Source: Candidatus Ozemibacteraceae bacterium (lineage in GTDB: Bacteria; Muiribacteriota; Ozemobacteria; Ozemobacterales; Ozemobacteraceae). From it: a stretch of DNA of 33,176 nt. Where the stretch lies: positions 1 through 33,176 of the forward strand of contig CALLCO010000053.1 of assembly GCA_937998695.1 (NCBI GenBank). Direction: 5' to 3'. Below are positions 3,779 to 18,617 of this stretch, one piece after another. The translations under genes and the position numbers were made by a program. Under the pieces are notes generated by a model. That model was not told the DNA's origin. It saw nothing but the letters and a program-made list of their open reading frames with translations, and searched no databases. Position 1 is the stretch's first letter. Every line of letters begins with the position of its first letter.

Positions 3779-6166
3779 TTAGGGGATTTTGCCTTCCGGG
3801 CCTTTGCCACCTTTCGGCAGAGCGCGCCAGACGTCCTCCTGGCGGATGGGCAGGTGGGTGAGGTCGGCCCCGACCGCGTTCTGGAGGGCGTTGCCGAGGG
3901 CGGCGCCGATGGCGATCATCGAGTGCTCGCCGACCCCGCGGGCCCCGAAGGGGCCGTCGATCTGCGGGGTCTCGACGGCGATGCAGTCGATCTCCTCGGG
4001 CAGGTCGAGCGAGGTGGGGATTTTGTTGTCGGTGAAGTTGGGGTTGAGCAGCCGGCCGTCGGGCGCATAGCGGTAGCCCTCGCACATCGCGGTGCCCAGC
4101 CCCTGCAGCATGCCGCCGATGATCTGCCCGCGCACCGATTTGACGTTGATCACTTTGCCGACATCGAACGCGCTGGCCACCTTGATAATATTGTACTCCC
4201 CAGTACGAGGATGTGCCTCGACCACCAGGCCGTGGGCCCCGTAGGTCCAGTCGAGGGCGGGGTTGCCCTGGCCGGTCTCCTTGTCGAGGTTGCTCAGCCC
4301 CTGGGCGACGTAGCGGCCGACGCCGACCAGCGGCCCGCCGATGGCGTTGCCGTCGGGGTAAGCGTAGCCCACCGCCATCGCCTTGAAGGTCACGCACTTC
4401 GCGGGATGGTGTCGCAGGAAGACCTTCTCGTCGTCATGGTCGAGATCGCAGGGGTTGGCCCGCAACACCTGGGCCGCCACCTCGTAGGCCTTGCCGAGCA
4501 GGTCGTGGGCGGCCAGAATGGCCGCATTGCCAGACAGCAAGAGCCCCTTGCTCGCCACCGTCTGCCAGTCGTAGGGATCGCGGTCGGTGTCGTTCTCGAT
4601 CGGCAGCCTGACCTTCTCGACGGGGAAGCCGAGCGCTTCGGCGATGATTTGGACAATGGACGTATACGTGCCGGCCCCGATCTCGGTCAACGACAGGTTG
4701 GCCGTCACCGTTCCGTCCTCGTTCATCTTCAGGATGACCACGGTGCCGGTGAAGGGCGGCATGGCCGGCGCCTTGTGCAGGGCGACGACCGCTTTGCCGA
4801 TCTTCATGCCGGTCTTTTTCTCGCGCGCCTTTTCAGCCGGGGTGAGCTTGCCGTAGCCGATCGCTTTCGCCACCTCTTCGAGGCAGCGGCCGACGTTGCC
4901 GGTGTGTTCGGTGATGACCTCGCCGGTCAGGGTCACCGAGCCGGGTTTGAGGGTGTTGGCCAGCCGGAACTTCAGCGGGTCCATGCCGAGGGTGCGGGCG
5001 CACAGGTCCATGTGGCGTTCCAGGCCCCACGAGAACTCGACGTGGCCGAAGCCGCGGTAGGCCGTGCCGAACGGCTTGTTCGTGTAGACGGTGTAGGCAT
5101 CGACCCAGGCGTTGGGGATCTCGTACGGCCCGGCCGCCGAATAGCCCGAAGCGCGGGTGACGTTGACGGCATAGTCGGCGTAGGCCCCGGCGTCCCAGTA
5201 CATGGTCATCTGCTGGGCGACGATCTTCCCGTTCTTCTTGACCCCGGTCTTGATGTGGTAGACGAGGCCGGACCGGCACGGCAGCAGGCTGAACTCTTCT
5301 TCCCGCGTCGCCTGGATCTTGACCGGGCGGCCGCCGGCTTGGCGGGACAGCACGCAACAGAGCGGCTCGAGGTGGATGCCCGCCTTGCCGCCGAACCCGC
5401 CGCCCACGGAGGGGATGTAGACCCGGATGTTACAGTGCGGGATCTTGAACGAGTGGGCGAACAGGTTGCGCACCGTGAACGGCGACTGGGCGCTGGTGAT
5501 GATGCTGATGCGGTCGCCCAGCAGCCATTGGCCGATCGCCACGTGGGTCTCCATCGGCACATGCTGGACGTTGGGGTTGGTGTACTCGCGCTCGACGATG
5601 ACGTCGGCCTCTTTGAACCCTTTTTCGACGTCGCCCTTGCGCAGCTTGGTGTGGTTGGCGATGTTGGTTCCGGGAATAGGGGTGAAGACCTCCTTTACGT
5701 ACTCGTATGTCCCCAGATCGGGGTGGACGAGCGGAGCCCCCTTCTTCGCCGCCGACTTGGGCTCGAGGACGGGCTCCATCACCTCGTAGTCGACCTGGAT
5801 CAGATCGACCGCCTGCTGGGCGATGGCCGGGGTCTCGGCCGCCACGGCGGCAACGGCCTCGCCGAAGTGGCGCACCACGTCCTTGGCGAGTATGTGCTTA
5901 TCGACGAGGTAGAGGCCGACGCGGTAGTCGAGTTCCTTCCCGGTGAGGACGGCATGGACGCCCGGCAGCTTCTCGGCCTTGCTGGTATCGATGCGCTTGA
6001 TGCGGGCCTTGGCGTGGGGGCTGCGCTTGACCTTGGCGTGGAGCATGCCCGGCACCACCCAGTCGCCCGTGTAGAGGGCCGCGCCGGTCAGCTTTTCGAC
6101 GGTGTCGATGCGTTCGATGCCCTTCCCGACGACCTTCAATTCTTCATGGGGAATGTTCTCAAACAC
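3779..6166 (-). CDS. Xanthine dehydrogenase-family molybdopterin-binding subunit
   Basis: This 795-aa protein is the large catalytic subunit of a molybdenum hydroxylase, which inserts oxygen from water into a substrate C-H bond. The N-terminal domain reads GKGIERIDTVEKLTGAALYT. The cofactor motif VGGGFGGKAG is in the middle, followed by TAYRGFGHVEF at the substrate pocket. GPFGARGVGEHS near the C-terminus carries the catalytic glutamate E747. Its GTG start (6166) overlaps the end of the [2Fe-2S] gene by 8 bases and follows GGAGGAG, so translation is probably coupled. It is the last gene of a three-gene operon (FAD, [2Fe-2S], Mo). No maturation genes such as xdhC are adjacent. The substrate could be xanthine, another purine, or an aromatic acyl-CoA; sequence alone does not decide. 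Confidence 0.92.
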   Translation of the reverse strand: MFENIPHEELKVVGKGIERIDTVEKLTGAALYTGDWVVPGMLHAKVKRSPHAKARIKRIDTSKAEKLPGVHAVLTGKELDYRVGLYLVDKHILAKDVVRHFGEAVAAVAAETPAIAQQAVDLIQVDYEVMEPVLEPKSAAKKGAPLVHPDLGTYEYVKEVFTPIPGTNIANHTKLRKGDVEKGFKEADVIVEREYTNPNVQHVPMETHVAIGQWLLGDRISIITSAQSPFTVRNLFAHSFKIPHCNIRVYIPSVGGGFGGKAGIHLEPLCCVLSRQAGGRPVKIQATREEEFSLLPCRSGLVYHIKTGVKKNGKIVAQQMTMYWDAGAYADYAVNVTRASGYSAAGPYEIPNAWVDAYTVYTNKPFGTAYRGFGHVEFSWGLERHMDLCARTLGMDPLKFRLANTLKPGSVTLTGEVITEHTGNVGRCLEEVAKAIGYGKLTPAEKAREKKTGMKIGKAVVALHKAPAMPPFTGTVVILKMNEDGTVTANLSLTEIGAGTYTSIVQIIAEALGFPVEKVRLPIENDTDRDPYDWQTVASKGLLLSGNAAILAAHDLLGKAYEVAAQVLRANPCDLDHDDEKVFLRHHPAKCVTFKAMAVGYAYPDGNAIGGPLVGVGRYVAQGLSNLDKETGQGNPALDWTYGAHGLVVEAHPRTGEYNIIKVASAFDVGKVINVKSVRGQIIGGMLQGLGTAMCEGYRYAPDGRLLNPNFTDNKIPTSLDLPEEIDCIAVETPQIDGPFGARGVGEHSMIAIGAALGNALQNAVGADLTHLPIRQEDVWRALPKGGKGPEGKIP

Positions 6167-6659
6167 GGCGCATCTCCTCCGTCTTCGGCTTCAACTGGCC
6201 GGTGGCGTCGAGGACCGACTCGATGATCTGCTGGTAGCCGGTGCAGCGGCAGAAGTTGCCCTCGATGGCCTCCTTGATCTGGTCGACCGTCGGCTTGGGA
6301 TGCTCCTTCAGCAGCGCCTTCACCGACATCAGCATGCCGGGAGTGCAGAACCCGCACTGCACGCCATGATTGCGATGAAAGGCCTCCTGCAGGTTCGACA
6401 GCTTGCCGTTTTTCGCCTCGCCCTCGACCGTCTCGATGGTGGCGCCGTCGGCTTCGGGCGCCAGCACCAGGCAGCTGTTGACCGTCTTGCCGTTCAGGAT
6501 GACGGTGCAGGCTCCGCATTCGCCGGCCCCGCACCCTTCTTTGGTGCCAGTCAGACCGAGATCCTCGCGCAGGAACCGCAGCAGCGTGCGGTGGCCCACG
6601 ACCTCGCGCGTATACTTCTTCCCATTGACCGTGACGGCCACCGTGTGCTTCGTGTTCAT
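6159..6659 (-). CDS. Molybdenum hydroxylase [2Fe-2S] iron-sulfur subunit
   Basis: This 166-aa electron-transfer subunit carries two [2Fe-2S] clusters. The plant-ferredoxin-type cluster ligands are C43, C48, C51 and C63 (GCGAGECGACTV... NSC). The alpha-helical cluster ligands are C102, C105 (CGFC), C137 and C139 (CRC). All eight cysteines of the family are present and the length is normal. The ATG at 6659 follows a GGAGGAAG site, and only 14 bases separate it from the FAD gene stop. The protein passes electrons from the molybdenum subunit to FAD in the subunit encoded upstream. The C-terminal tail after the last cysteines (TGQLKPKTEEMRRV) is slightly extended. Confidence 0.95.
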   Translation of the reverse strand: MNTKHTVAVTVNGKKYTREVVGHRTLLRFLREDLGLTGTKEGCGAGECGACTVILNGKTVNSCLVLAPEADGATIETVEGEAKNGKLSNLQEAFHRNHGVQCGFCTPGMLMSVKALLKEHPKPTVDQIKEAIEGNFCRCTGYQQIIESVLDATGQLKPKTEEMRRV

Positions 6660-6673
6660 CGTCTTCCTCCAGT

Positions 6674-7489
6674 TCAGGCCAGCGCCGGCAACAATTTTCT
6701 GATGAACTCTTCGACCATGAACAGCCGAAAGTCACGAGAAGCACGCACGTCGTCGATCGGGTTGACCACCTTGAAGGCGGCCGCCACGACCGCGGCCGCC
6801 GTCGCCTGGGGCGGCAGGTCGGCCGTCACCACCGGGGTCGGGGCGCAGGACCCGATGCCCACCCGCAGCCATGTGGCGGTGCGGGCGATGGCCACACTGA
6901 CCACCGCCAGATCGTGCCCCTTGATGCGCTTGAGCTTTTCCATGCCCCAGGCGGCCCCGGCCGCCTCGGCTGGGTAGAGCACGCGTTGGACGACTTCGTC
7001 ATCCTTCAACTGGGTGGCTTTGACCCCGGTGAAGAACTCCTTCATCGGGATGACCCGGGTGCCGCGCACCGAGGCCAGTTCAACGCGGGCGCCGAGCGCC
7101 AGCGAGCTGCAGCCCAGATCGGCACAGGGCGAGGCGGTGCAGAGGTTGCCCCCGATGGTGGCGCGGTTGCGCAGCTGGGCCGAGCCGATGTGCCCGGCGG
7201 CATGGGCCAGCAGCGGGAACTTTTTCGCGATCACCGGATGCCGCATGATCTCGATGCAGGTCACGGTGGCCCCGATGGCCAGACCATCGCGCTCGGACCA
7301 GGTGATGCCCTGCATCTCGGGAATGTGCTTGACGTCGATCAGGTAGGCGGGCTTGTCAGTGCCGAGCCGGATGTCGCACAGCAGGTCGGTGCCGCCGGCC
7401 AGCAGGCGCGCCTGGCCGGAATGTTTCTTCAGCAACTGCAGAAGATCCTTCCTCTCACGCGGCGCCAGGTAGGAAAACTCATGAAGCAT
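6674..7489 (-). CDS. Molybdenum hydroxylase FAD-binding subunit (CoxM/XdhB type)
   Basis: This 271-aa flavin subunit is the first gene of the hydroxylase operon. FAD-binding motifs are RLLAGGTDLL near the N-terminus and RNRATIGGNLCTASPCADL in the middle, followed by the usual C-terminal CO-dehydrogenase flavoprotein domain (IKGHDLAVVSVAIA). The ATG at 7489 has AAAGGAG upstream. The long [4Fe-4S] insertion seen in 4-hydroxybenzoyl-CoA reductase beta subunits is absent, which argues against that specific enzyme. The segment LCTASPCADLGCSS has three closely spaced cysteines, a little unusual for the family. It accepts electrons from the [2Fe-2S] subunit and reduces NAD or another acceptor. Confidence 0.92.
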   Translation of the reverse strand: MLHEFSYLAPRERKDLLQLLKKHSGQARLLAGGTDLLCDIRLGTDKPAYLIDVKHIPEMQGITWSERDGLAIGATVTCIEIMRHPVIAKKFPLLAHAAGHIGSAQLRNRATIGGNLCTASPCADLGCSSLALGARVELASVRGTRVIPMKEFFTGVKATQLKDDEVVQRVLYPAEAAGAAWGMEKLKRIKGHDLAVVSVAIARTATWLRVGIGSCAPTPVVTADLPPQATAAAVVAAAFKVVNPIDDVRASRDFRLFMVEEFIRKLLPALA

Positions 7490-7612: not shown

Positions 7613-10600
7613 ATGAACAATGCTCCAGCGCCCCTGGTCTACGGAACGCCCGACCGCGGCCTCCGGCGATGGCTGCTGCCGATGTTCCTGACGGTGGTCC
7701 CCCTGCTCGTGCTCCTGCCCACCATCCGGGAGGAACGACAGCAACAGAGGCGTGACCAGGAGCGTCGCCTCGTTGCCGCCACCGATCCGGTGGTGGCCCG
7801 TTTCCGCGAAGCCGCGACCCTCAAGTTCTGGGCGGCCCAGACCGCCCGTCGCCTGGTCCGGTCGATCGAACGCCGGCTGACCGAACCTGCGGGGACCAAC
7901 GGCCCCAGTGAACTTGCCCCGACCCCGACCAGCCAACGCCGTGTGGCAACGCCCCGACCCGTTAAGCCCACTGGAGAAGGGGCCCAAGCCTTTCCACCTT
8001 CCCCCCCCCAACCGCAAGATCCGGCGCTCCGCTCGTTATCGCCCAGGCCCCCCATCCCTCCCGCCTCCGCTCTGACGCAGGCCCTGGCCGACCTGGGTGA
8101 TCGCTACCGTCTGGCCGGCATCCCCCCTGTCCGGCTCTGGGCCTTCGCCTTACCCGCCCCCGGCCAGACGGCGGGACAGGTTCAGGCCCTGACCGGACCT
8201 GGCCTGGAAACTGCGTATCGACGGGTTTTCGGCCAGCTGTTCCAGGCTCTCGCCACCGCCCATCAAACCGGCGAGCCGCTCCCGCGGCGGGTTTTCCAAA
8301 TTTTTCAAGAGACCTTCGGTCCCGGCGTGACCCGCGAAACGTTGTCTCCCGCCAACCGGGGCATGGCCTTTCCCGTTCTGTTCCAGGGCCGGTTTTCCCT
8401 CCTCGTCTGGGATCTCTGGTTCCAGGATGCACGCCCGATGGGGGGATTCTTCCTGGTCATGGACCGGCCCCCGACCGCCGATCACCTGGCCATCGAGCTC
8501 GCCGTGCGGCACTGGCGGCGGCTGGTGGGCCGACACGCCCTCTGGCCTGCCTGCTTCCTGTTCCCGGGCCTTCCCCTGCCGGACACGCCGCGCCGTATCA
8601 TTCATCCCGCCATCGCGGAAGCCGGTTTGACACGCGCGCTTCATCGGCTGGCCCGCAGCCTGTGGGTTCGCCAAGCTACAGACCGTCTTGGTCAGGTCGA
8701 TCCCCACCGCTGGCCACCCTCCGTCATTGCTGATTCCTTGGCGATCCCGGGGCTCTCCCGAACCGACCCGCCCACCCCCACGGCGATCGCCAGCAGCCCG
8801 CCGGGGTTGGCCCCATCAGGAACCGCTTCCCCTCCCGTGGTTTTGGGCCGCCTCGTCTACCCGCTCCGCCGCCTGGACCGGTTCCTTCCCCTGGGAGCGT
8901 GGCTGACCCGCCTGGTGGCACTCGGCCCGGATGCCCCCTATTTTGCCATCCTGGTCATGCCCCGGCCGGGCGCCAGCTCTTCGAGGCTGACCATGATCTG
9001 GCAGGCCCTGTTCATCGCCTGGGCGGGCGGCTGGGCCATGTTCTTCAGCCTGGCCGTGGGACGGAAGCGCCTGCCTCAGCCGAGCGTCGCCCTCCAGCTC
9101 GCCGGGTGGATCCTCTGTCTGATGGGTCTGGCCGGGGTTCTCCTGCTAACTTCCCAGCGCCGACTTCTGCAGGACCTCGAGGCCCGCCTGATCGACCAGG
9201 CCTCCCAGCGTATGCAGGAGCAGGCCCGCACCCTCGAGGGCGAGGCCGCCCGCCTGACCTGGCGTCAGGGCCGGGTTTGCGATCGCATCCTGCGCCGACC
9301 GGCGTTCCAGGAAGGATTGATCCGTGATCGGCTCGCGACCGCCGCCGGGGTCTCAGCCCCTGGGGCGACCCGACCGACCGCCCCGAGGAAGAAGGCAAGC
9401 GCTGAGATTAGGGATGGCGTTGCTCCGCGAATCGACCACCTGGCGAGGGCCTGGGCCGCCCTCCACCGCGAGGGGCTGTCCCCGCAGATCCTTGCCGCGG
9501 TAGGTTCGGGAGGATACGTGCTGGCCACCTTCTCCGCAAGCATCGCTCCAGAGGAGCAGCCCCCCTTGCTGGAAGCCATTCGCACCTATGGCGAACCCTT
9601 CATCACCCAGGAGCAGGGCTGGCTGGCTTCCGATCCCGCCCGGTTCAGCATCGGCCAGTTTTTCTCCAATGACCGTGGCTACGACCTGCGCAACCCCGGC
9701 ACCGTAGGCACGGCCGTTCTCGGCGGACGGCGGTTCTGCCGTCTTCACCAGTTCGTCCGTCACCAGGGGCGGATTCTGCTCTATCTTGTCGTGTTTTGGG
9801 AAGGGGACCAGGAATTTCCCGCCCACCTGCGCCGCTTGTTGCGCCTGACCCACGGCCGGCGCGGCCTCGAGGCGGCGGTGTTCCGGCGACACGGGATCGA
9901 TCTGCAGACGATCGCCGCCGCCGGCCGTGTGACCATGCTGCGCGCCTCGGCCAGAGAGGACACGCAGAAGCCGCGTCTGCGGCGGGAACCCAACGGGGAA
10001 TTCCTGCAGTATCTTTATCCCAGCCCCGTGTTGAAAGGCTACACCTTCGCCGTGCGTCAGCCGCTGGCCCCGGTCTTCCGCATCCTGCGCGAGGAAGAAC
10101 GGTCCTTCCTGCGCCTCATTTTCCTCGGGCTTCCTCTGCTGCTGGTCCTGGGAGCCCTCGCCCTGCACGGCTGGCTGGCCCGGCCGATCCAGGACCTGGC
10201 CACCGCCCTGGGCCGGATCGATGCCGGGGATTTCACCGCCCGCCTCGATCTGGTCCGTGGCGACGAACTGGGCCAGGCCGCCACGGCCTTCGACCGCGTG
10301 GCGGCCGGACTGCAGGAACGCGACCGGATGAGCCGGTTCGTCACCGCCAACGTCCTGGAGGCCATCCGTGCCGATGGTCCGGCCGGGGCCGCCCCCGGAC
10401 GCCGGGGGCCGGTCATCATGCTGTTCGCCGACATCCGCGGGTTCACGACCCTCTCCGAAGCCCATCCCCCCGAGGCCATCTTCGCCGCTCTCAACCGCCA
10501 TTTCGAGGTGTTGTCGCCCTGCGTGCACCGCGAGGGGGGACTCATCGAGCGGTTCATCGGCGACGCCATCCAGGCAGTGTTCGAGGGCGGTGGAGCACCG

Positions 10601-13600
10601 ACCGTCGACCGGGCCCTTCGTGCCGCCCTGGCCATGCGACGCGCCTGGCAGGACCTGCAAGCCGAGCGGCGGGCCGCCGGGGCGTTCGTCTACGACATGG
10701 GAATCGGCCTTGCCAGCGGCGACGGCATCACCGGCGTGGTGGGCGATGCCAGGGTCCGCCAGGACGTCGTCGTCCTGGGCCCCCCGGTCGGCGAGGCGGC
10801 CGCCATGGAGGCCCTCACCAAGGTGGTGGGAGGGACGGCCATCATCTGCTCGGAGGCGGTCAAGGCGCAGGCCGGGCCCGGCTGGCGGTTCGGCCCGGTT
10901 CCGGGCCATCCCCAGGCCTGGATCCTGCTGGAAGGAACGGGCGAACCCGCGGCGACGACGGGGGCACTCCAACTCCCCATCGGGGAGGGCACGACGGCCG
11001 GGACTCCTCCCACCGGAGTTCATCCCGTCACACGCACCGCTTCCCCCCTTCCCACCAACCCGAACGCCGGTGGAACCCCATCCATCTCTGGCACCTTCCC
11101 CTGCCCACCCGCCTCCAGGGGCGGGTCGGGGATGGCTTGGAACACGTTCCTGGCGGCCAGCGCGTTCTGGCTTCTCGCCCTGGCCCTCATGTCCGGAGCG
11201 ACCAGGGCCTGGCAGAAGGATTTGCAGGCGCACCGGGTCAGGGAGACCGACCGCGCCCTGCGACAGGACCTGGTCGAGATCCGCAAGACCAGCCGCGAGC
11301 AAACCCAGGTCGCCCTCCTCCTGCGCGAACTGTTCCACGCGGTCCACCGCCGGTCGGGATCCGGGGCTTCCGCCCCGCCCCCCCCTAGGGACACCGCGGC
11401 TTCGGATTCTTACTCCAGCTTCACGGGCCGATCAATGGCACCCCTCCATCTGCCCCCGCAGGCCCAGGACACAATGCCTCGTCGGTGGGAAGCGAGGGCC
11501 ACCGCGTCCGAGACTTTCGAGCTGGGCCCTTACCGGGCCATCCTGGAACGGCTGCGCCGACGCTGGCCATCCCTCACCTGGGCCATCGTCCGCTCCGGCC
11601 CCCTCCCTCTCATCGCCCCTTCGGATGCCGTTAATCGGTCCCCCCAAGCCGCCATTTCCATTTCTCCGGCTGGCTCCGTTTCGTCTTCTCCTCCGGACCC
11701 GCTCCTGTTGGAAATCTGGGCGTGCCGCGAGGAAGTGGGCATGCCGCCCAGGATGGGCAGTTTCGAATTTCCGTTGGTAGAGGCGGCCCGTGCCCGAGGC
11801 TGGTCCCCCCGCCGCTGGGTGGCGGATGCCACCTATGCCGAACGGATCATCGACTCGAGCCCCACGCCGCCTCCACTGCTCCCCTGGCAATTGGTGCATC
11901 TGGCAGCGACCCTCGAACGCTTTCGCGGCGGCAAAACGCGTTCCATGCGGGTCTCTTATCCGGAGATGCTTCTCCTACCCACTCTCGGGGAGCATCCTCT
12001 CCACCTTCAAGATCTCGTCGTAGAATCGGCCGGTGGGTTCCGCTCCCTGCGATTAGGCGGCCAGGAGCTGCTGTTTTTCTGGGAATTCATTCCAACCCCC
12101 GGGCGGGCCAGCCTCCTCCTCTTCCTGCCCCCGGATGCTCTCGACTATACCGCTGGTCTGCACGCCATGATCGAACGCCTGGGACGGGCGGGAACCGTTC
12201 TTTCGGTAACCCCGTTCGAGGCAGACCGACCCCGACGGCGACCCAGGGGAAGCGAAACGTTGGCCCCTGGCGCCACGCGAAGCGTATCTCTCCGGCTCTT
12301 CCCCGGCGGAAACGGAACGAGACAGCGGCGCCTCCACCAGTTGGGCCGCCGGTTGCAGGAAGCGGTCGCCACCGGACGCCGCCTCCCCGGCTGGGTGATC
12401 CGACAGGGAGTCCTGGAAACCGATCGTCAGCGGTTCCGGGTGCTCGCCGCCCGGCGGCTCCCGCCGGCCGAAGTCCCGCCTTGGCCATTGCGGCTCGGGG
12501 AACTGCTGAGCGCCCTCTGGCTGGGAGCCGGGCTGCTGGCGGGGGCATGGCTGCTCATCCGCCGCGCTCCGCTCCAACTCTCCCTGCGCCCCAAACTGGC
12601 GGCCGCCTTCCTGTGCCTGCTGCTGCCCACGCTGGTCGTCAGCTCGGCCGTCTTCGGACGCAGTGCCCTGGCCCAGATCGCCGGGACCGAGGCCCGCGAG
12701 GGGGATCTGCTGGAACAGGATCTGCGACGCTCCGAGGATGCCTACGAAGCCCTCCTCGCCTGGAACAGCCGTCTCCTGCGCGGACTCCTTCACCAGCCGT
12801 CGCGCCTGCCCACCCTTCTAGGGAACTCCCCTGCGGCCGGGCCAACCCTGGAAAGACCCACCAGTTCCCCCAATGATCCAGCCATCATGAGTTTGTATGA
12901 TGAGCTTCTTTCTCACGGAGCCGTGGCCATGGGCATCGGGGTTGGGGGGCCCGGGATTCCTGCCCGGTCTGTCAATGCCATGGCTGTCTTCTGGGGCCAG
13001 GAAGATCAGGGTCGGCTGCTCGTCCCACTGTTGAAGAAGTCGCTCCGAGCCCTTCATCCTGAGGCTGGACGTGGTTCGGGGCGGACGGCCGTCGCTCCGA
13101 CACCTGCCCGTGACGATCTCTTGGCCGAGGAGGTGTTCAGCACCCTCACCCTGATTTCCACGGGAGAATTCATGGCCGACGTGCTTCATGCCCCGTGGGC
13201 CCTCTGCCGAATGGATTGGGGAATGAATACCATCCAGGTTTTCCGGGCCTTCCTGCCCCTCGGCCCACGCCCCCACGCTGTCCTATGGGTAATCTGGGAC
13301 TACCGGTGGGTGATCCTTCCTCTGGCGGAAGGATGGCAACAAACCTTCCCCCACCGCTCACACCTCGATTATCGCTTGGCGATCAACACGAGTCCCAACG
13401 TCACCTTCGTCCACCCCTATCTCACTTTCTGGCCGGTCGGACCGGGCAAACGCTGGGCGGGGTTCCGGGAGTTCGTGTCCTACGACCCCCCGGAGGTGGG
13501 CCGGCTGCTCAGCACCGCCCGCCACTCGGGGGAAACCGTCACCCGGATTCTCGGCCAGGGCAAGGAGGCCCGGTTGGTGCTGGCCCGTCAGAGCGCGGCC

Positions 13601-14530
13601 ACCCTGCGCTTCATCCTTTTCCTGTCGACGCCCATCGGACACCTGTGGGCCGACCTCCGCCGCCAGGCGGAGCTCTACCAGTGGTTCTTGGCCGCGTTGC
13701 TGGTGGGGTCGCTGATCCTGGCCCGCCTGATGGCCGCCCGTTTCCTCGGGCCACTGGAAGCCTTTTCCCAGGCGGCCGGAGCCGTGGCGGCAGGCAACTA
13801 CCGGGTGGGGCTGCGGCTCGACCGCACCGACGAGTTCGGCGCGGTGGCCGTCGCGTTCAACCGCCTGTGCCGAAGCCTTGACGAAGGCCGGCTGTTGCGA
13901 CGGTTCGTCTCGGAGTCGGTCCGGCGGGCCGCCCGGGACGACGAGCAGGCGGAAGAGGCCCGCCGGGGCCGGCACCGCGAGGCGGTCATCCTGTTCGCCG
14001 GGACGGCCCACCTGGCCGAGGGTCGACCTGACCAGAACCCCGGGGAGATCCTCGCCGGGATCAACGCCTTTCTGGCACGGGGCGCACAGATCATCCGGCG
14101 CCACGACGGGGAAATCGACAAGTTCCTGGGCGAGAAGATCCTGGCCGTCTTCGACGCCAGCTCCCCCGCCTCCCTGGCCACGGCCGCCGCCGCCGCGGTG
14201 GCGGCCGGTCGGGCCCTGGCGGCCGAATTGGGCAGGGCATCCGGGGGGGCGCCTGCCCCATTGGGGGTGGGTATCGTGACCGGGCGGGTCCTGGCGGGCA
14301 TCCTCGGGACGCCCACCGTCCGCCTCGAGTATACCGTGCTGGGCGACCCGGTCAATCTCGCCTCCCGCCTGTGCGATCTGGCTCTCCAGCAAGGTCGCCC
14401 CACGATTCTCCTCGATCCCACCACTGCCCGTCTGGTGGCCGGGGAAGGCATCGCCTGCCAGCCCCTCGGCCAAACGCGGGTCAAGGGCAAGGCCAAAGAA
14501 GTGAACGTCTTCCGCCTCCAGGCCGACTGA
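7613..14530 (+). CDS. Giant double-module membrane class III adenylate cyclase (pseudo-heterodimer)
   Basis: The product is about 2305 aa and is built from two tandem copies of one architecture. Module 1 has TM1 (20-38), about 420 extracytoplasmic residues, a TM2/TM3 hairpin (461-482 and 492-513, joined by RKR), about 320 extracytoplasmic residues, TM4 (834-856), HAMP (ARPIQDLATAL) and a cyclase domain. Module 2 repeats this with TM5 (1177-1196), TM6/TM7 (1631-1649 and 1662-1681), TM8 (2024-2042), HAMP and a second cyclase domain. Catalytic residues are split between the domains (see the two domain entries), so one composite active site is expected, making cyclic AMP from ATP in response to external signals. 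The ATG at 7613 immediately precedes TM1; the ribosome-binding site (GCGAAAG) is weak. In-frame sequence upstream of it lies in the AT-rich intergenic region. A Pro/Thr-rich linker (about 1100-1173) joins the modules. Class membership is firm; nucleotide specificity and signal are inferred. Confidence 0.9.
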   Translation: MNNAPAPLVYGTPDRGLRRWLLPMFLTVVPLLVLLPTIREERQQQRRDQERRLVAATDPVVARFREAATLKFWAAQTARRLVRSIERRLTEPAGTNGPSELAPTPTSQRRVATPRPVKPTGEGAQAFPPSPPQPQDPALRSLSPRPPIPPASALTQALADLGDRYRLAGIPPVRLWAFALPAPGQTAGQVQALTGPGLETAYRRVFGQLFQALATAHQTGEPLPRRVFQIFQETFGPGVTRETLSPANRGMAFPVLFQGRFSLLVWDLWFQDARPMGGFFLVMDRPPTADHLAIELAVRHWRRLVGRHALWPACFLFPGLPLPDTPRRIIHPAIAEAGLTRALHRLARSLWVRQATDRLGQVDPHRWPPSVIADSLAIPGLSRTDPPTPTAIASSPPGLAPSGTASPPVVLGRLVYPLRRLDRFLPLGAWLTRLVALGPDAPYFAILVMPRPGASSSRLTMIWQALFIAWAGGWAMFFSLAVGRKRLPQPSVALQLAGWILCLMGLAGVLLLTSQRRLLQDLEARLIDQASQRMQEQARTLEGEAARLTWRQGRVCDRILRRPAFQEGLIRDRLATAAGVSAPGATRPTAPRKKASAEIRDGVAPRIDHLARAWAALHREGLSPQILAAVGSGGYVLATFSASIAPEEQPPLLEAIRTYGEPFITQEQGWLASDPARFSIGQFFSNDRGYDLRNPGTVGTAVLGGRRFCRLHQFVRHQGRILLYLVVFWEGDQEFPAHLRRLLRLTHGRRGLEAAVFRRHGIDLQTIAAAGRVTMLRASAREDTQKPRLRREPNGEFLQYLYPSPVLKGYTFAVRQPLAPVFRILREEERSFLRLIFLGLPLLLVLGALALHGWLARPIQDLATALGRIDAGDFTARLDLVRGDELGQAATAFDRVAAGLQERDRMSRFVTANVLEAIRADGPAGAAPGRRGPVIMLFADIRGFTTLSEAHPPEAIFAALNRHFEVLSPCVHREGGLIERFIGDAIQAVFEGGGAPTVDRALRAALAMRRAWQDLQAERRAAGAFVYDMGIGLASGDGITGVVGDARVRQDVVVLGPPVGEAAAMEALTKVVGGTAIICSEAVKAQAGPGWRFGPVPGHPQAWILLEGTGEPAATTGALQLPIGEGTTAGTPPTGVHPVTRTASPLPTNPNAGGTPSISGTFPCPPASRGGSGMAWNTFLAASAFWLLALALMSGATRAWQKDLQAHRVRETDRALRQDLVEIRKTSREQTQVALLLRELFHAVHRRSGSGASAPPPPRDTAASDSYSSFTGRSMAPLHLPPQAQDTMPRRWEARATASETFELGPYRAILERLRRRWPSLTWAIVRSGPLPLIAPSDAVNRSPQAAISISPAGSVSSSPPDPLLLEIWACREEVGMPPRMGSFEFPLVEAARARGWSPRRWVADATYAERIIDSSPTPPPLLPWQLVHLAATLERFRGGKTRSMRVSYPEMLLLPTLGEHPLHLQDLVVESAGGFRSLRLGGQELLFFWEFIPTPGRASLLLFLPPDALDYTAGLHAMIERLGRAGTVLSVTPFEADRPRRRPRGSETLAPGATRSVSLRLFPGGNGTRQRRLHQLGRRLQEAVATGRRLPGWVIRQGVLETDRQRFRVLAARRLPPAEVPPWPLRLGELLSALWLGAGLLAGAWLLIRRAPLQLSLRPKLAAAFLCLLLPTLVVSSAVFGRSALAQIAGTEAREGDLLEQDLRRSEDAYEALLAWNSRLLRGLLHQPSRLPTLLGNSPAAGPTLERPTSSPNDPAIMSLYDELLSHGAVAMGIGVGGPGIPARSVNAMAVFWGQEDQGRLLVPLLKKSLRALHPEAGRGSGRTAVAPTPARDDLLAEEVFSTLTLISTGEFMADVLHAPWALCRMDWGMNTIQVFRAFLPLGPRPHAVLWVIWDYRWVILPLAEGWQQTFPHRSHLDYRLAINTSPNVTFVHPYLTFWPVGPGKRWAGFREFVSYDPPEVGRLLSTARHSGETVTRILGQGKEARLVLARQSAATLRFILFLSTPIGHLWADLRRQAELYQWFLAALLVGSLILARLMAARFLGPLEAFSQAAGAVAAGNYRVGLRLDRTDEFGAVAVAFNRLCRSLDEGRLLRRFVSESVRRAARDDEQAEEARRGRHREAVILFAGTAHLAEGRPDQNPGEILAGINAFLARGAQIIRRHDGEIDKFLGEKILAVFDASSPASLATAAAAAVAAGRALAAELGRASGGAPAPLGVGIVTGRVLAGILGTPTVRLEYTVLGDPVNLASRLCDLALQQGRPTILLDPTTARLVAGEGIACQPLGQTRVKGKAKEVNVFRLQAD
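10400..10890 (+). other. C1 cyclase domain: metal site intact, substrate residues lost
   Basis: This is the first catalytic domain of the double cyclase. FADIRGFT carries metal-binding D940 and FIGDAIQAVF carries D984; the 44-residue spacing is that of classical class III enzymes. The adenine-contact Lys position is Arg (R980, in ERFIGD). In the segment DVVVLGPPVGEAAAM the base-contact Thr/Asp is V1053, the transition-state Asn is G1060 and the Arg is A1064. On its own, or as a homodimer, it should be inactive. It resembles the C1 half of animal adenylyl cyclases. Confidence 0.85.
13976..14527 (+). other. C2 cyclase domain: substrate residues intact, metal Asp lost
   Basis: This is the second catalytic domain. 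LFAGTAHLAEG has G2130 where the first metal Asp belongs, and DKFLGEKILAVF has E2174 instead of the second. It keeps the adenine-contact K2170 and, in EYTVLGDPVNLASRL, T2241, N2248 and R2252 at the canonical +7 and +11 spacing. The Lys/Thr pair is the class IIIb combination associated with ATP specificity. The losses are exactly complementary to those of C1, so it should pair with C1 in cis. Confidence 0.85.
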
Positions 14531-14656: not shown

Positions 14657-14691
14657 GCTGAACGAGCGTGTCAACGGGCGCCAAGGGCGGG

Positions 14692-14720
14692 TTTACATCG
14701 GCCGGAGGCAAGGGTATCAT
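14692..14720 (+). promoter_or_regulatory. Strong sigma70-type promoter for the fdrA-ylbE operon
   Basis: TTTACA (14692-14697) and TATCAT (14715-14720) have exactly 17 bases between them, and each differs from consensus at one position. Transcription would start near 14727, about 50 bases before the fdrA ATG at 14779. Confidence 0.6.
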
Positions 14721-14778
14721 GGCCGGGCCGATCGGGCTCGAACGCCCTGGATGGTACTCTGACAAGGAGGGGATAGGA

Positions 14779-16308
14779 ATGATCGTCCGTCACCGGATCA
14801 AACCCCAGACCTACTTCGATTCGGTCACCCTGATGCTGATCGGCACCGAACTGAAGAAGCTGGCGGGGGTGACCAACGCGGTGGTCGGCATGGGAACCGA
14901 CTACAACATCGACAGTCTGAAACGGCTCGGGATGTACAGCGACGCCTTCGCCACCGTGACGCCGGCGGACCTCGTGCTGGCCGTCCAGGCTGCCGACACG
15001 ACAGCTGGCGACGCCGCCCTGGCAGCCGCCGAGGCTCTGCTGCAACGGCGCCAAGCGCCCGCCGGCAGCGGGGCCGCCTACACCCCTACCTCACAGGAGG
15101 GCGGAGCCCGGGTGCTGCCCGACGCCAACATGGTGCTGATCAGCGTTCCCGGGCAGTTCGCGGGGCGCGAGACCGAGATCGCCCTCGAGGCCGGGCGCCA
15201 CGTCATGCTGTTTTCCGACAATGTGCCCATCGAGGAAGAAATCCGGCTGAAAGAGAATGCAGTGCGGAAAGGTCTGCTGGTCATGGGTCCCGACTGCGGC
15301 ACGGCCATCATCAACCAGGTGCCCCTCGCCTTCGCCAACGTGGTGCGACGGGGCGACATCGGCTTGGTGGCCGCCTCGGGCACCGGCCTGCAGGAAGTTA
15401 CCGCTCTGATCACCCGCCTTGGGTTCGGCATCACCCAGGCCATCGGGGTGGGCGGCCGCGACCTGTCGGAGAAGGTCGGCGGCCGCATGACCCTGCTGGC
15501 CGCCCAGGCCCTGGCCGACGACCCCAAGACGAAGGTCATCGTCCTGATCTCCAAGCCTCCGGCCCCGGCGGTCGTCGAGGCCCTGTTCGCCCGCCTGCAG
15601 AACACCCGCAAGCCGGTCGTGGTCTATTTCATCGGCGCGGACCCGCAGACGATCATCAGGGCGGGGTTCAAGGCCGCCGCCACCCTCGAGGACGCCGCCC
15701 TGCAGGCGTGCGCCCTGTCCGGCGGCAAGCCGCTGTCGCCGCTCATGCCGGCGGACGAGATTCGGCGCCGGGCCGCGGGCCAGACCCTGCCCGGCCGGTT
15801 CGTGCGCGGGCTGTATTCGGGCGGCACCTTGTGCGACGAAGCCCAGCGCCTGTTGAAGGGGCAACTCGACGAGATCTGGTCGAACACCCCGGTGGCGGGA
15901 TGCCGCGCGCTGCCCGATCCCTTCAAGAGCCAGGGCAACTGCATCGTCGATCTGGGCGAAGACACCTTCACCCGCGGGCGCGCCCACCCGATGATCGACC
16001 CGGGCTACCGCCAGGAACGGCTGCTGGCCGAGGCCGCCGATCCCGACGTCGGCCTGATCTTCTTCGACGTCGTTTTGGGCTTCGGCTCGCACCCCGACAT
16101 GGCGGGAGCGATGGCCGCGGCGGTGCGCCAGGCCCGCGCCCGGGGGGGCCACGTTCCCCGGTTCGCCGCCACCATCCTTGGCACCGAGGGCGACCCCCAG
16201 AACCTACGCCGGCAACAGGCCACGCTGGCCGAGGCCGACATCGAAGTCTTCCCGTCCAATGTCGCGCTGGTCACCTACGTCCAGCATCTGCTCGCGCCAA
16301 AGGGGTGA
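14779..16308 (+). CDS. fdrA: FdrA family protein (acyl-CoA synthetase-like; oxamate carbamoyltransferase subunit family)
   Basis: This 509-aa cytoplasmic protein is related to the succinyl-CoA synthetase alpha fold. An N-terminal domain opens with MIVRHRIKPQTYFDS. A Rossmann-like part includes DANMVLISVPGQFAG, and a SucD-like segment contains GPDCGTAIINQVPLAF, ASGTGLQEVTALI and GVGGRDLSEKVGGR. In E. coli, FdrA acts with YlbE and YlbF in anaerobic allantoin breakdown at the oxamate carbamoyltransferase step (established for that system, inferred here). The ATG at 14779 follows AAGGAGGGG. It heads a four-gene plus-strand operon with the small 68-aa gene 5 bases downstream, then YlbE. No YlbF-like or carbamate kinase gene is in the window, so the reaction may differ from E. 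coli. Confidence 0.85.
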   Translation: MIVRHRIKPQTYFDSVTLMLIGTELKKLAGVTNAVVGMGTDYNIDSLKRLGMYSDAFATVTPADLVLAVQAADTTAGDAALAAAEALLQRRQAPAGSGAAYTPTSQEGGARVLPDANMVLISVPGQFAGRETEIALEAGRHVMLFSDNVPIEEEIRLKENAVRKGLLVMGPDCGTAIINQVPLAFANVVRRGDIGLVAASGTGLQEVTALITRLGFGITQAIGVGGRDLSEKVGGRMTLLAAQALADDPKTKVIVLISKPPAPAVVEALFARLQNTRKPVVVYFIGADPQTIIRAGFKAAATLEDAALQACALSGGKPLSPLMPADEIRRRAAGQTLPGRFVRGLYSGGTLCDEAQRLLKGQLDEIWSNTPVAGCRALPDPFKSQGNCIVDLGEDTFTRGRAHPMIDPGYRQERLLAEAADPDVGLIFFDVVLGFGSHPDMAGAMAAAVRQARARGGHVPRFAATILGTEGDPQNLRRQQATLAEADIEVFPSNVALVTYVQHLLAPKG

Positions 16309-16313
16309 GAGTG

Positions 16314-16520
16314 ATGGCTGCCATCCACGATCTGTTCACCAGCCCGATCAAGGTTATCAACGTCGGACTGCCCAGTTTCCATGCCGATCTCAAGAGCCAG
16401 AACGTGCCCGTCGTCCACGTCAACTGGCAACCACCGGCGGGCGGCAACGCTCGGGTCGCCGCTCTGCTCGACCGCGTCCGGCGCTGGCAGGCCCAGGTCC
16501 GGGCCGGGAAGAAGGAGTGA
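16314..16520 (+). CDS. Small FdrA/YlbE-associated domain protein (68 aa)
   Basis: A short gene lies between fdrA (stop 16308) and ylbE (ATG 16528). It reads MAAIHDLFTSPIKVINVG, then LPSFHADLKSQNVPVVHVNW and a QPPAGGN motif, ending with a basic helix (RVRRWQAQVRAGKKE). From memory, the segment with VINVGL, VVHV.W and PPAGG also occurs fused to FdrA- or YlbE-type proteins, so here it would be a separately encoded domain of the same complex. The start could be GTG 16311 or ATG 16314; the spacing to fdrA is 2-5 bases. GAAGGAG inside its last codons serves ylbE. Its biochemical role is unknown, but gene order and tight packing make it very likely real. Confidence 0.75.
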   Translation: MAAIHDLFTSPIKVINVGLPSFHADLKSQNVPVVHVNWQPPAGGNARVAALLDRVRRWQAQVRAGKKE

Positions 16521-16527
16521 GCGACCG

Positions 16528-17781
16528 ATGCAACGACTTGACATCGCCGCCATCAACCGCGAAGCTGTCCAGGCCATTCAGAAGTCGCAACCGGTGCTGA
16601 CCGGGGTCGGCATCGCCGGCGAGGTGGTGCCACGGATGCGCCGGAACCTGATCCTGCACGCCGGCCCCCCCATCACCTGGGACCGCATGTGCGGCCCGAT
16701 GCGCGGCGCCGTCATGGGCGCCCTCGTCTATGAGGGACTGGCGAAGACCATTCCCGAAGCCGAGAAGCTGGCCGCCTCGGGCGAGATCGCTTTCGAGCCC
16801 TGGCACGAGCACGACGGTGTCGGCCCCATGGCCGGGGTCGCCACCGCCTCGATGCCTGTCTGGATCGTCGAGGACAAGGCGGCTGGCCGCCGCACCTTCT
16901 GCACCCTCAACGAGGGTCTGGGAAAAGTGTTGCGCTACGGCGCCTACTCCGACGAGGTGCTGGTACGCCTGCGCTGGATGCGGGACGTGCTCGGCCCCGT
17001 GCTGCGCGAGGCGCTGGCCGGGCGACCCGAGATCAACCTCAAGGCGTTGATCGCCCAGGCCCTGCAGATGGGCGACGAGGTCCACAACCGGAACCGGGCC
17101 GCCACCTCGCTGCTCTTCCGCGAACTGGCGCCAGCCATCCTCAGGACCCGGGCCAAGACCGACGATCAGGTCAAGGTGCTCGAGTTCTTGCACGCCAACG
17201 ACCACACCTTCCTCAACCTGTCGATGCCCGCCGCCAAGATCATGCTGCAGGCGGCCGAATGGCGCGAAGGCTGCACCCTCGTCACCACCATGGCCCGCAA
17301 CGGCACCGACTTCGGCATCCGCGTGGCCGGCCTCAAGGACCGCTGGTTCACCGCCCCGGCCGGCATGGTCAAGGGCTTGCTGTTCCCCGGCTTCACCGAT
17401 GCCGACTGCAACCCCGACATCGGCGATTCGGCGATCACCGAGACGGTGGGCCTGGGCGGCTTCTCGATGGCCGCCGCCCCCGCCATCGTCAAATTCGTCG
17501 GGGGGACGGTGGCCGACGCCATGACCTATACCCAGACCATGTATGAGATCACCACCGCCGAATCCGAGGCGTTCCAGATACCGACCCTCGATTTCCGGGG
17601 ATCGCCGCTCGGCATCGATCTATTGAAAGTTTGCGAAACCGGCATCCTGCCCCAGATCAACACCGGCATCGCCCACCGCGAGGCAGGCGTGGGCCAGGTC
17701 GGGGCGGGTTTGATCAAACCGCCGGCCAAGTGTTTCGAGGACGCCCTCGCTGCCTACGTCGACGCCTATTGTCCAGAGTGA
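16528..17781 (+). CDS. ylbE: YlbE-like DUF1116 protein
   Basis: This 417-aa soluble protein of the DUF1116/YlbE family almost always sits beside FdrA. Recognisable conserved stretches are HAGPPITWDRMCGPMRGA, FEPWHEHDGVGPMAGV, RNRAATSLLFRELAP, TTMARNGTDFGIRV and INTGIAHREAGVGQVGAG. In E. coli it is part of the oxamate carbamoyltransferase set of allantoin degradation; a carbamoyl-transfer or acyl-CoA-related step is inferred here. The ATG at 16528 follows GAAGGAG (16511-16517). The length is normal for the family and no frameshift is apparent. It is followed after 47 bases by a cyclase-family hydrolase, probably on the same transcript. Confidence 0.88.
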   Translation: MQRLDIAAINREAVQAIQKSQPVLTGVGIAGEVVPRMRRNLILHAGPPITWDRMCGPMRGAVMGALVYEGLAKTIPEAEKLAASGEIAFEPWHEHDGVGPMAGVATASMPVWIVEDKAAGRRTFCTLNEGLGKVLRYGAYSDEVLVRLRWMRDVLGPVLREALAGRPEINLKALIAQALQMGDEVHNRNRAATSLLFRELAPAILRTRAKTDDQVKVLEFLHANDHTFLNLSMPAAKIMLQAAEWREGCTLVTTMARNGTDFGIRVAGLKDRWFTAPAGMVKGLLFPGFTDADCNPDIGDSAITETVGLGGFSMAAAPAIVKFVGGTVADAMTYTQTMYEITTAESEAFQIPTLDFRGSPLGIDLLKVCETGILPQINTGIAHREAGVGQVGAGLIKPPAKCFEDALAAYVDAYCPE

Positions 17782-17828
17782 TTTTCAGGTACTTTTGAGT
17801 CCAACATCACTATGCAAGGAGAAGGTTC

Positions 17829-18617
17829 GTGAACGTCAAGATGTACGACCTGACCCAGCGGCTCAGCATCCACACGCCGCCCTGGCCGAGCTACATGCCG
17901 CTCCAGGTGCAGTATTTCAAGCGCATCGCCGGCGCCCACATGGGGCAGGGGGCCAACGGCCAGATCATCAAGACCAGCAACCACGTCGGCACCCATATCG
18001 ACGGCGAGATCCACTTCGTCGCCAACGGCCGCACCATCGGCGACACCCCCCTCGAGGAGTTCTGCGGCGAGGGCGTCGTGGTCGACATCTCGCAGGATGT
18101 CGAGGATTACAGCCTCTATTCCCCCGAGATGTTGATGAAGCGCGCCGACATCCGCCAAGGCGACATCCTGATCATCAATACCGGCTACCACCGCTACGCC
18201 TGGGACCAGCCCGAGGCCGACGAGGTCCGCTACATGGTCAAACATCCCGGCCCCAACCCCGACTTTCACCAATGGGCCCTGTCGATGAAGTTCAAATGGA
18301 TCGGCGTCGACTGCGGCTCAGCCGACCATCCGATGAACACCATCCTGCGGCAGTGGCACCCCAAGCTGTTCGCCGAAGCCGAGAAAAAACTGATCGAAAC
18401 GTATAAGAAGACCTGGGACGAATTCTTCCCTACCGAGGAATACTACCAGGTTATGCATCTCAAGCTGTTCCCCAAGGGGCTCATCCATGCCGAGAACCTG
18501 GGCGGCGAGATCGACAAGCTGAACAACAAACGCACCTGGATCGGCCTCTTCCCCTGGCGCGCCATCGAACTCGAATCCTGCATCAGCCGCGTTGTCGCCT
18601 TCGAGTTCCAGAAGTGA
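17829..18617 (+). CDS. Cyclase-family metal-dependent hydrolase
   Basis: This 262-aa protein belongs to the cyclase family, whose known members include kynurenine formamidase (KynB) and isatin hydrolase; these hydrolyse amide or lactam bonds at a metal site. The signature HVGTHIDGEIHF carries H52, H56, D58 and H62, matching HxGTHxDxPxHF except that Glu replaces the usual Pro. DILIINTGYHRYAW and WIGVDCGSADHPM are further family-like stretches. The GTG at 17829 is chosen because AAGGAG (17817-17822) precedes it; ATG 17841 is an alternative. As the last gene of the fdrA-ylbE cluster it suggests ring opening or deformylation of a nitrogenous compound whose product feeds FdrA/YlbE. The substrate is unknown. 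Confidence 0.85.
   Translation: MNVKMYDLTQRLSIHTPPWPSYMPLQVQYFKRIAGAHMGQGANGQIIKTSNHVGTHIDGEIHFVANGRTIGDTPLEEFCGEGVVVDISQDVEDYSLYSPEMLMKRADIRQGDILIINTGYHRYAWDQPEADEVRYMVKHPGPNPDFHQWALSMKFKWIGVDCGSADHPMNTILRQWHPKLFAEAEKKLIETYKKTWDEFFPTEEYYQVMHLKLFPKGLIHAENLGGEIDKLNNKRTWIGLFPWRAIELESCISRVVAFEFQK

Follow-up and report, generated by a model that had tools for sequence, protein, structure and literature searches.

In class III nucleotide cyclases, the metal-binding Asp pair of an active site comes from one catalytic domain and the other active-site residues come from its partner. At the base-selecting position, class IIIa catalytic domains carry Asp, while a Lys/Thr pair marks the adenylate type in class IIIb enzymes, many bacterial members of which have the order sensor-HAMP-cyclase. 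Animal membrane adenylyl cyclases combine two class III domains in one chain, C1 first and each behind its own membrane part, with the Asp pair in C1 and the remaining catalytic residues in C2. Two class III domains in one chain are also found in soluble adenylyl cyclase (ADCY10), which is soluble and carries an ATPase part behind the cyclase domains. Two papers describe bacterial class IIIb cyclases as homodimeric, each chain holding every catalytic residue (PMC4821796, PMC9552081), and the former reports for Rv1625c chimeras that activity returns when inactive mutants of a homodimeric bacterial cyclase with complementary defects are combined (PMC4821796). For the fungal proteins RGC1 or RGC2 with NeoR, part of a further paper describes that two unlike chains are needed for one enzyme (PMC7655827). 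The main text of PMC2447327 yielded no passage on heterodimers, and no bacterial case of a heterodimeric, fused or tandem split-site cyclase, in Riflebacteria or elsewhere, was found in titles and abstracts, a coverage outside which subscription journals mostly fall.

The gene described here lies in a window (the whole stretch of DNA that was analysed) of 33,176 nt, contig CALLCO010000053.1 of assembly GCA_937998695.1, from an uncultured bacterium of the phylum Candidatus Riflebacteria, in which class III cyclases are numerous (Table 1). In its product, Pfam detected two stretches of PF00211 (Guanylate_cyc; 75.6 bits against a cut-off of 21.9) and two HAMP stretches, and no match to an AAA domain. 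Hydropathy predicts the same layout for each half, namely TM-region-TM-TM-region-TM-HAMP-cyclase with four transmembrane (TM) helices, and the two large inter-TM regions of half 1 span aa 36-464 and 513-832.

Table 1. Coordinates of the cyclase gene, its parts and the neighboring genes in the window.
Feature	Position (nt)	Strand	Residues or remarks	Basis
Fused two-receptor, two-cyclase gene	7613..14530	+	2305 aa plus stop; no internal stop	
Half 1 receptor part	7661..10165	+	predicted TM helices aa 17-35, 465-483, 494-512, 833-851	hydropathy
HAMP 1	10163..10318	+	aa 851-902	Pfam
C1 cyclase domain	10400..10897	+	about aa 930-1095	Pfam, profile alignment, residue check
Inter-half linker	10910..11128	+	about aa 1100-1172; Gly/Pro/Ser/Thr-rich	translation
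Half 2 receptor part	11132..13723	+	predicted TM helices ~aa 1174-1192, 1631-1649, 1658-1676, 2019-2037	hydropathy
HAMP 2	13694..13882	+	about aa 2028-2090	Pfam stretch; placed by NCBIfam HAMP-region matches
C2 cyclase domain	13979..14527	+	about aa 2123-2305	profile alignment, residue check
Molybdopterin-binding subunit, xanthine dehydrogenase type (context)	3779..6166	-	retained in two more species	Pfam
FAD subunit, xanthine dehydrogenase type (context)	6674..7489	-	divergent to cyclase gene	
fdrA-type gene (context)	14668-16308	+	downstream; retained in two more species	
allG-type gene (context)	16381-17781	+	downstream; retained in two more species	
PF04199-type gene (context)	17829-18617	+	downstream; retained in two more species	

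A preliminary description of the gene had named twelve residues of the two cyclase domains; all were found at the numbers given there, and their columns were confirmed by profile alignment. C1 retains D940 and D984 and has R980, V1053, G1060 and A1064 in the Lys, Thr, Asn and Arg columns, whereas C2 has G2130 and E2174 in the Asp columns and retains K2170, T2241, N2248 and R2252. The full six-residue set is supplied by C1 and C2 jointly and by neither domain singly, so that the description was correct in seeing a single-chain bacterial protein whose residues are divided as in animal membrane cyclases. C1 would contribute the two metal-binding Asp, and C2 the adenine-selecting Lys/Thr and the transition-state Asn/Arg. 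Since a class III site is drawn from both domains, with the residues split in this way only a C1:C2 dimer would give the full set, and only once, so that of its two sites one would be complete and the other dead; neither half would hold a full set for a homodimer. Each half is predicted to be a receptor, with four TM helices, two large extracytoplasmic regions and a HAMP domain, that ends in a class IIIb-type cyclase domain, and a HAMP1:HAMP2 pair might integrate the signals that arrive at the two unlike receptor halves and so control cAMP output. Judged from sequence, the gene very probably encodes a membrane adenylate cyclase in the form of a fused heterodimer, derived from two-gene heterodimers of the same phylum, in which duplication would have been followed by reciprocal loss and then by fusion.

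With animal membrane adenylyl cyclases the protein shares the domain order, the residue split and the membrane part in front of each cyclase domain. It differs from them in its membrane layout, where a predicted 4+4 arrangement of TM helices, combined with HAMP domains and large extracytoplasmic regions, takes the place of 6+6, and in carrying Thr (in C2) instead of Asp at the base-selecting position; moreover, its domains are closer to bacterial class IIIb types, and unfused two-gene kin exist. Close kinship with animal cyclases was rejected, as bacterial or bacterial-type domains, e.g. CyaB, Cya2, CyaC and OaPAC, rank first in the profile search of the PDB. Profile and fold searches assign these four to the same domain type, and they share the Lys/Thr pair, but homodimeric bacterial receptor cyclases carry all catalytic residues in one domain, which the window protein does not. 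Because TM layout and class residue differ, the protein is not a member of the animal pseudoheterodimer family; it would work like an animal pseudoheterodimer yet stands outside that family as a new variant of class III cyclases. The best reading is that it is very probably a dual-receptor adenylate cyclase with one composite site, descended from class IIIb-type enzymes of bacteria along a line separate from that of animals; an independent route to the animal-like design had been proposed before, and the PDB ranking and the 4+4 TM plus HAMP layout agree with it. The profiles of C1 and C2 both also match PDB entries of ADCY10. In contrast to that enzyme, the window protein has receptors and HAMP domains and no ATPase match. 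The sGC alpha/beta and RGC-NeoR enzymes resemble the unfused Riflebacteria pairs in using two unlike chains per enzyme, but they are eukaryotic guanylyl cyclases with other sensors, whereas the enzymes described here are bacterial, have adenylate-type residues and include a fused form.

In profile alignments of C1-type against C2-type proteins, columns 462-1092, from about the third TM helix to the end, aligned with probability 100 and the receptor portion aligned weakly, which points to a paralogy of the two types that reaches beyond the catalytic domain. Direct BLAST of half 1 against half 2 covered only the HAMP and cyclase parts. No Pfam family matched the receptor regions. AlphaFold models of the halves were poor (mean pLDDT 50.3 for half 1 and 48.4 for half 2) and weak outside the cyclase parts; with these low-confidence models, the top Foldseek rows for both halves were CyaB, CyaC, Cya2 and OaPAC, matched in the cyclase parts only. 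Neither Pfam nor the half-models gave anything usable on sensor identity, the best 50 Foldseek rows per half all being cyclase structures.

Doublets of PF00211 matches were chosen by position, as two matches adjacent on one strand or in one frame, before their residues had been seen; in practice this choice favoured frames of ~900 aa or longer. Where a complete cyclase stood immediately in front of a pair (L013, L040), it was not taken as one of the partners, and in one C1-C1-C2 triplet (L054) the last two genes were used. Genomes G008 and G010 were left out, and the doublets of G003-G005 are those among the matches listed. With up to 25 examined per genome, 101 doublets were counted, to which the genomes of the window's own family contributed 94. 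Forty-two lie in one frame, with C1 first in every case, and 59 are adjacent genes (37 C1-first, 22 C2-first). A metal donor was complemented by a K/T/N/R domain in 100 of the 101, the sole miss being an AAA-linked protein of G017 (L102). C1 had both Asp in 101 of 101, whereas Lys was present in 47, Thr in 46, Asn in 8 and Arg in 14, with Asn and Arg never together. C2 had Asn in 101, Arg in 101, Lys in 100 (one gap) and Thr in 99 (two Ser); its first Asp column held D in one doublet and another residue in 92 and was unaligned, and scored as lost, in eight, while the second was still D in 56 of 101. What stays constant across doublets is the Asp pair of C1 together with K/T/N/R of C2. The exact complementarity claimed for the window gene is true of this gene, and its sixfold exactness is the extreme end of the 101 doublets. 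A regulatory pocket at the dead site had been suggested as well; no evidence for it was found, and since the dead-site letters vary across doublets, they give no argument for one shared pocket.

These counts also bear on two other readings of the doublets. One is that they are decayed or purely structural and lack catalysis, and it is true that each domain alone is short of needed residues. However, the residues needed by one joint site are nearly invariant and the unneeded ones drift, which in effect rules this reading out and leaves it only a very small probability. The other concerns the product: one of the top PDB hits, Cya2, is a guanylyl cyclase according to its title, and cGMP or another cyclic nucleotide might be made instead of cAMP. 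We regard this as quite unlikely, as the base-selecting pair of C2 is Lys/Thr almost throughout; from this pair ATP is argued to be the substrate. Catalysis by a joint site with cAMP as the probable product thus stays the preferred reading.

The split was predicted in writing before 20 regions of G004, G006, G007, G009 and G011 were examined. The division into Asp on one side and Asn/Arg on the other came out as predicted in all 21 held-out doublets, and 19 also followed the exact wording; in L199 and L200 the first C2 Asp column was unaligned, and L199 had Ser for Thr. Twenty places that had first been left out were later examined with rows read by eye. They gave 17 readable doublets, 12 of which were complementary (in L222 the first C1 Asp lies off the contig), while L214, L223 and L227 were cut and had fewer than two readable domains. 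The five others combined a complete cyclase with a small DD/ANNA domain (L208, L225), two complete cyclases (L224) or a complete cyclase with a cut C2-type fragment (L221, L226). With five of 17 not complementary, adjacency alone is no predictor of the split. Overall, 112 of 118 readable doublets were complementary, which provides the homologues with the same reciprocal loss that the preliminary description had called for, and a complete cyclase was present in five of the six misses. The pairing rule covers the partners of this doublet family and not any two neighbouring cyclases. This C1/C2 pair family of Riflebacteria is defined here by an Asp-pair domain plus a K/T/N/R domain, each grouping with its type, and the window gene was found to have both. 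Small DD/ANNA cyclase-like domains were seen at L208, L225 and L025, two of them adjoining a complete cyclase in G001 and G002; they would represent a different residue loss and not a C1/C2 pair.

Across nineteen genomes, the window's own included, PF00211 matches number 8 to 87 per genome. The own genome (4.53 Mb, 324 contigs) has 35, of which 14 make up seven doublets, namely the window gene and six pairs of neighbouring genes. Fifteen of the 21 matches outside doublets retain both Asp, Lys, Asn and Arg; set against the same split in nearly all doublets, these near-complete sets bear out the claim that the reciprocal loss is not chance. The other six comprise the C1-type gene L020, for which no C2 partner was visible in the stretch examined, three short or cut frames (L022, L025, L026), the degenerate L023, and L024 with Lys for Arg. 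L023 (2302-4614) and L044 (2024-4381), single cyclase-like proteins of two species that lie together in the tree, read REKTSR and GEKTRH; without metal Asp and Asn they are likely to be inactive or partner-dependent. Thirteen matches to the cNMP-binding domain indicate that possible cAMP receptors are present in the own genome. G002 has 87 PF00211 matches in 7.1 Mb, far above the 1 to 18 in ten genomes of other groups.

Those ten genomes, which were reached via cyclase loci, contain 79 PF00211 matches and no frame with two, and in one same-strand run from Myxococcales all six positions are filled in each of three genes (DDKTNR, DDKDNR, DDKDNR). Within the phylum but outside the window's family, no same-strand close doublets were listed in G012, G014, G015 and G018, whereas G013 has four complementary pairs, G016 one, and G017 one complementary doublet (L097) and one that is not (L102). 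In both doublets of G017, two cyclase domains are followed by an AAA_16 ATPase, which is the order of ADCY10; L097 shows reciprocal loss and L102 does not. Pairs were also seen in two records labelled Methylomirabilis (L106, DYKG01000029.1) and Cloacimonadota (L159, JACFNL010000141.1). These labels look wrong or outdated, the records having been matched to G009, of the window's family, and to G013, of the same phylum. The scan of named genomes took in the best 80 matches only and gives no basis for confining such pairs to Riflebacteria.

One could suspect that an error of assembly or frame had run two neighbouring genes together into the single frame of the window gene, given the many contigs of the genome and the fact that most kin are two genes. 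However, the orthologue in G001 is fused end to end, with 65.5% identity over 2352 aligned columns, and 39 other receptor-type doublets from other genomes each form one open frame with C1 first. On these grounds an artefact is ruled out for practical purposes and has a next to negligible probability; the same orthologue answers the concern, raised in the preliminary description, that corrected reads would split the gene. G002 has a further fused relative, 47% identical in each of two long pieces. The single-chain design thus stands as a real fusion, but has to be revised in that the gene is a member of a large paralogous family in which two adjacent genes are the more frequent form.

In three species the cyclase gene is flanked on one side by divergent subunit genes of xanthine dehydrogenase type and on the other by fdrA-, allG- and PF04199-type genes, so that a purine/oxamate-type locus (window 3779-7489 on the minus strand and 14668-18617 on the plus strand) is conserved. 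From this neighbourhood one could guess, weakly, at a purine-related signal. Opposite the molybdopterin-subunit gene, a 790-aa open frame (window 3854-6226, plus strand) without Pfam match is 70-76% alike in relatives and probably only shadows that conserved gene.

Partner domains have diverged together. For 54 cognate pairs (G002 and the held-out genomes left out), C1-C1 and C2-C2 distances correlated with r 0.779, a value that none of 2000 permutations attained, whether partners were exchanged freely or just inside each genome; with the own genome's seven pairs alone, 14 of 2000 permutations reached the observed correlation. In 55 of the 59 adjacent doublets, the second stop-to-stop frame is already open by the stop of the first gene, which is suggestive of coupled translation. 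The unfused relatives must assemble between chains, and in 40 fused proteins the stretch from the end of C1 to the start of C2 is long (831 to 1167 aa). Both points would suit a domain-swapped arrangement, in which C1 of one fused chain completes its site with C2 of a second copy and the fusion serves dosage and partner fidelity. We consider this unlikely, though worth keeping in mind: nothing in the sequence is decisive, and one chain contains all parts. The composite site may instead form in cis, as the preliminary description proposed.

A tree of 150 domains was calculated with the six catalytic columns removed. The C1 domains, except those of G016 and G017, formed one group and most C2 domains another; after removal of three long rows the C1 group lay on one side of a branch with support 94, and the C2 group as one clade was not rejected (p-AU 0.80). 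A tree of 98 pairs was rooted on G013, this rooting and the quick search being its weak points. It contains a starred clade of 68 pairs with three starred parts, one fused (14), one adjacent (26) and one fused with two re-split members, L047 and L068 (28). The fused and adjacent states require three changes on this tree, two of them forced by starred branches. Because, with this root, only adjacent pairs branch outside the 68-pair clade, the reciprocal loss would have preceded fusion, however the fusions are counted.

The same sharing-out of residues also appears outside this clade. In G003, adjacent CHASE2-receptor cyclases (L213:887-5910) carry DD/KTND and TE/KTNR. Two complete cyclases of the CHASE2 clade join them in a starred set of four rows (support 100), which points to an independent, younger origin from complete cyclases of that clade. 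Adjacent dCache cyclases in G016 (L098, G016:C238), 48% identical to each other, carry KD/KTNR and DD/KSSR and lie in a starred set with complete cyclases (97). They possibly represent another separate origin, less firmly than L213; a firm claim was discarded, as grouping with the other C1 (p-AU 0.165) or the other C2 domains (p-AU 0.089) was not rejected.

Taken together, we lean towards a wider history, which we hold to be rather likely but well short of assured. Riflebacteria, without eukaryotes, would have evolved adenylate cyclase receptors that are obligate heterodimers and form a large family. These would have begun as two-gene operons sharing one site; fusion would have followed in one lineage at least, perhaps in two, along with a single re-split. 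Specialisation would have come before fusion, two unlike dual-sensor receptors would feed one cAMP output, and the sharing-out would have been repeated from CHASE2 and dCache cyclases. If true, this sequence of events would reverse the one proposed for animal cyclases, in which fusion comes first. Within one phylum, neighbouring gene pairs, fusions and what looks like a re-split can all be found, which makes the steps of such an enzyme's origin comparable and, with all forms side by side, the question of origin testable with natural enzymes. One active site common to two unlike receptors suggests a recurrent route to signal integration. Cyclase genes can also be clustered beyond the doublet: three fused cyclase genes lie in a row at L050-L051 (G003:C152), and six separate cyclase genes at L078 (G005:C67) follow a strict C2-C1 alternation.
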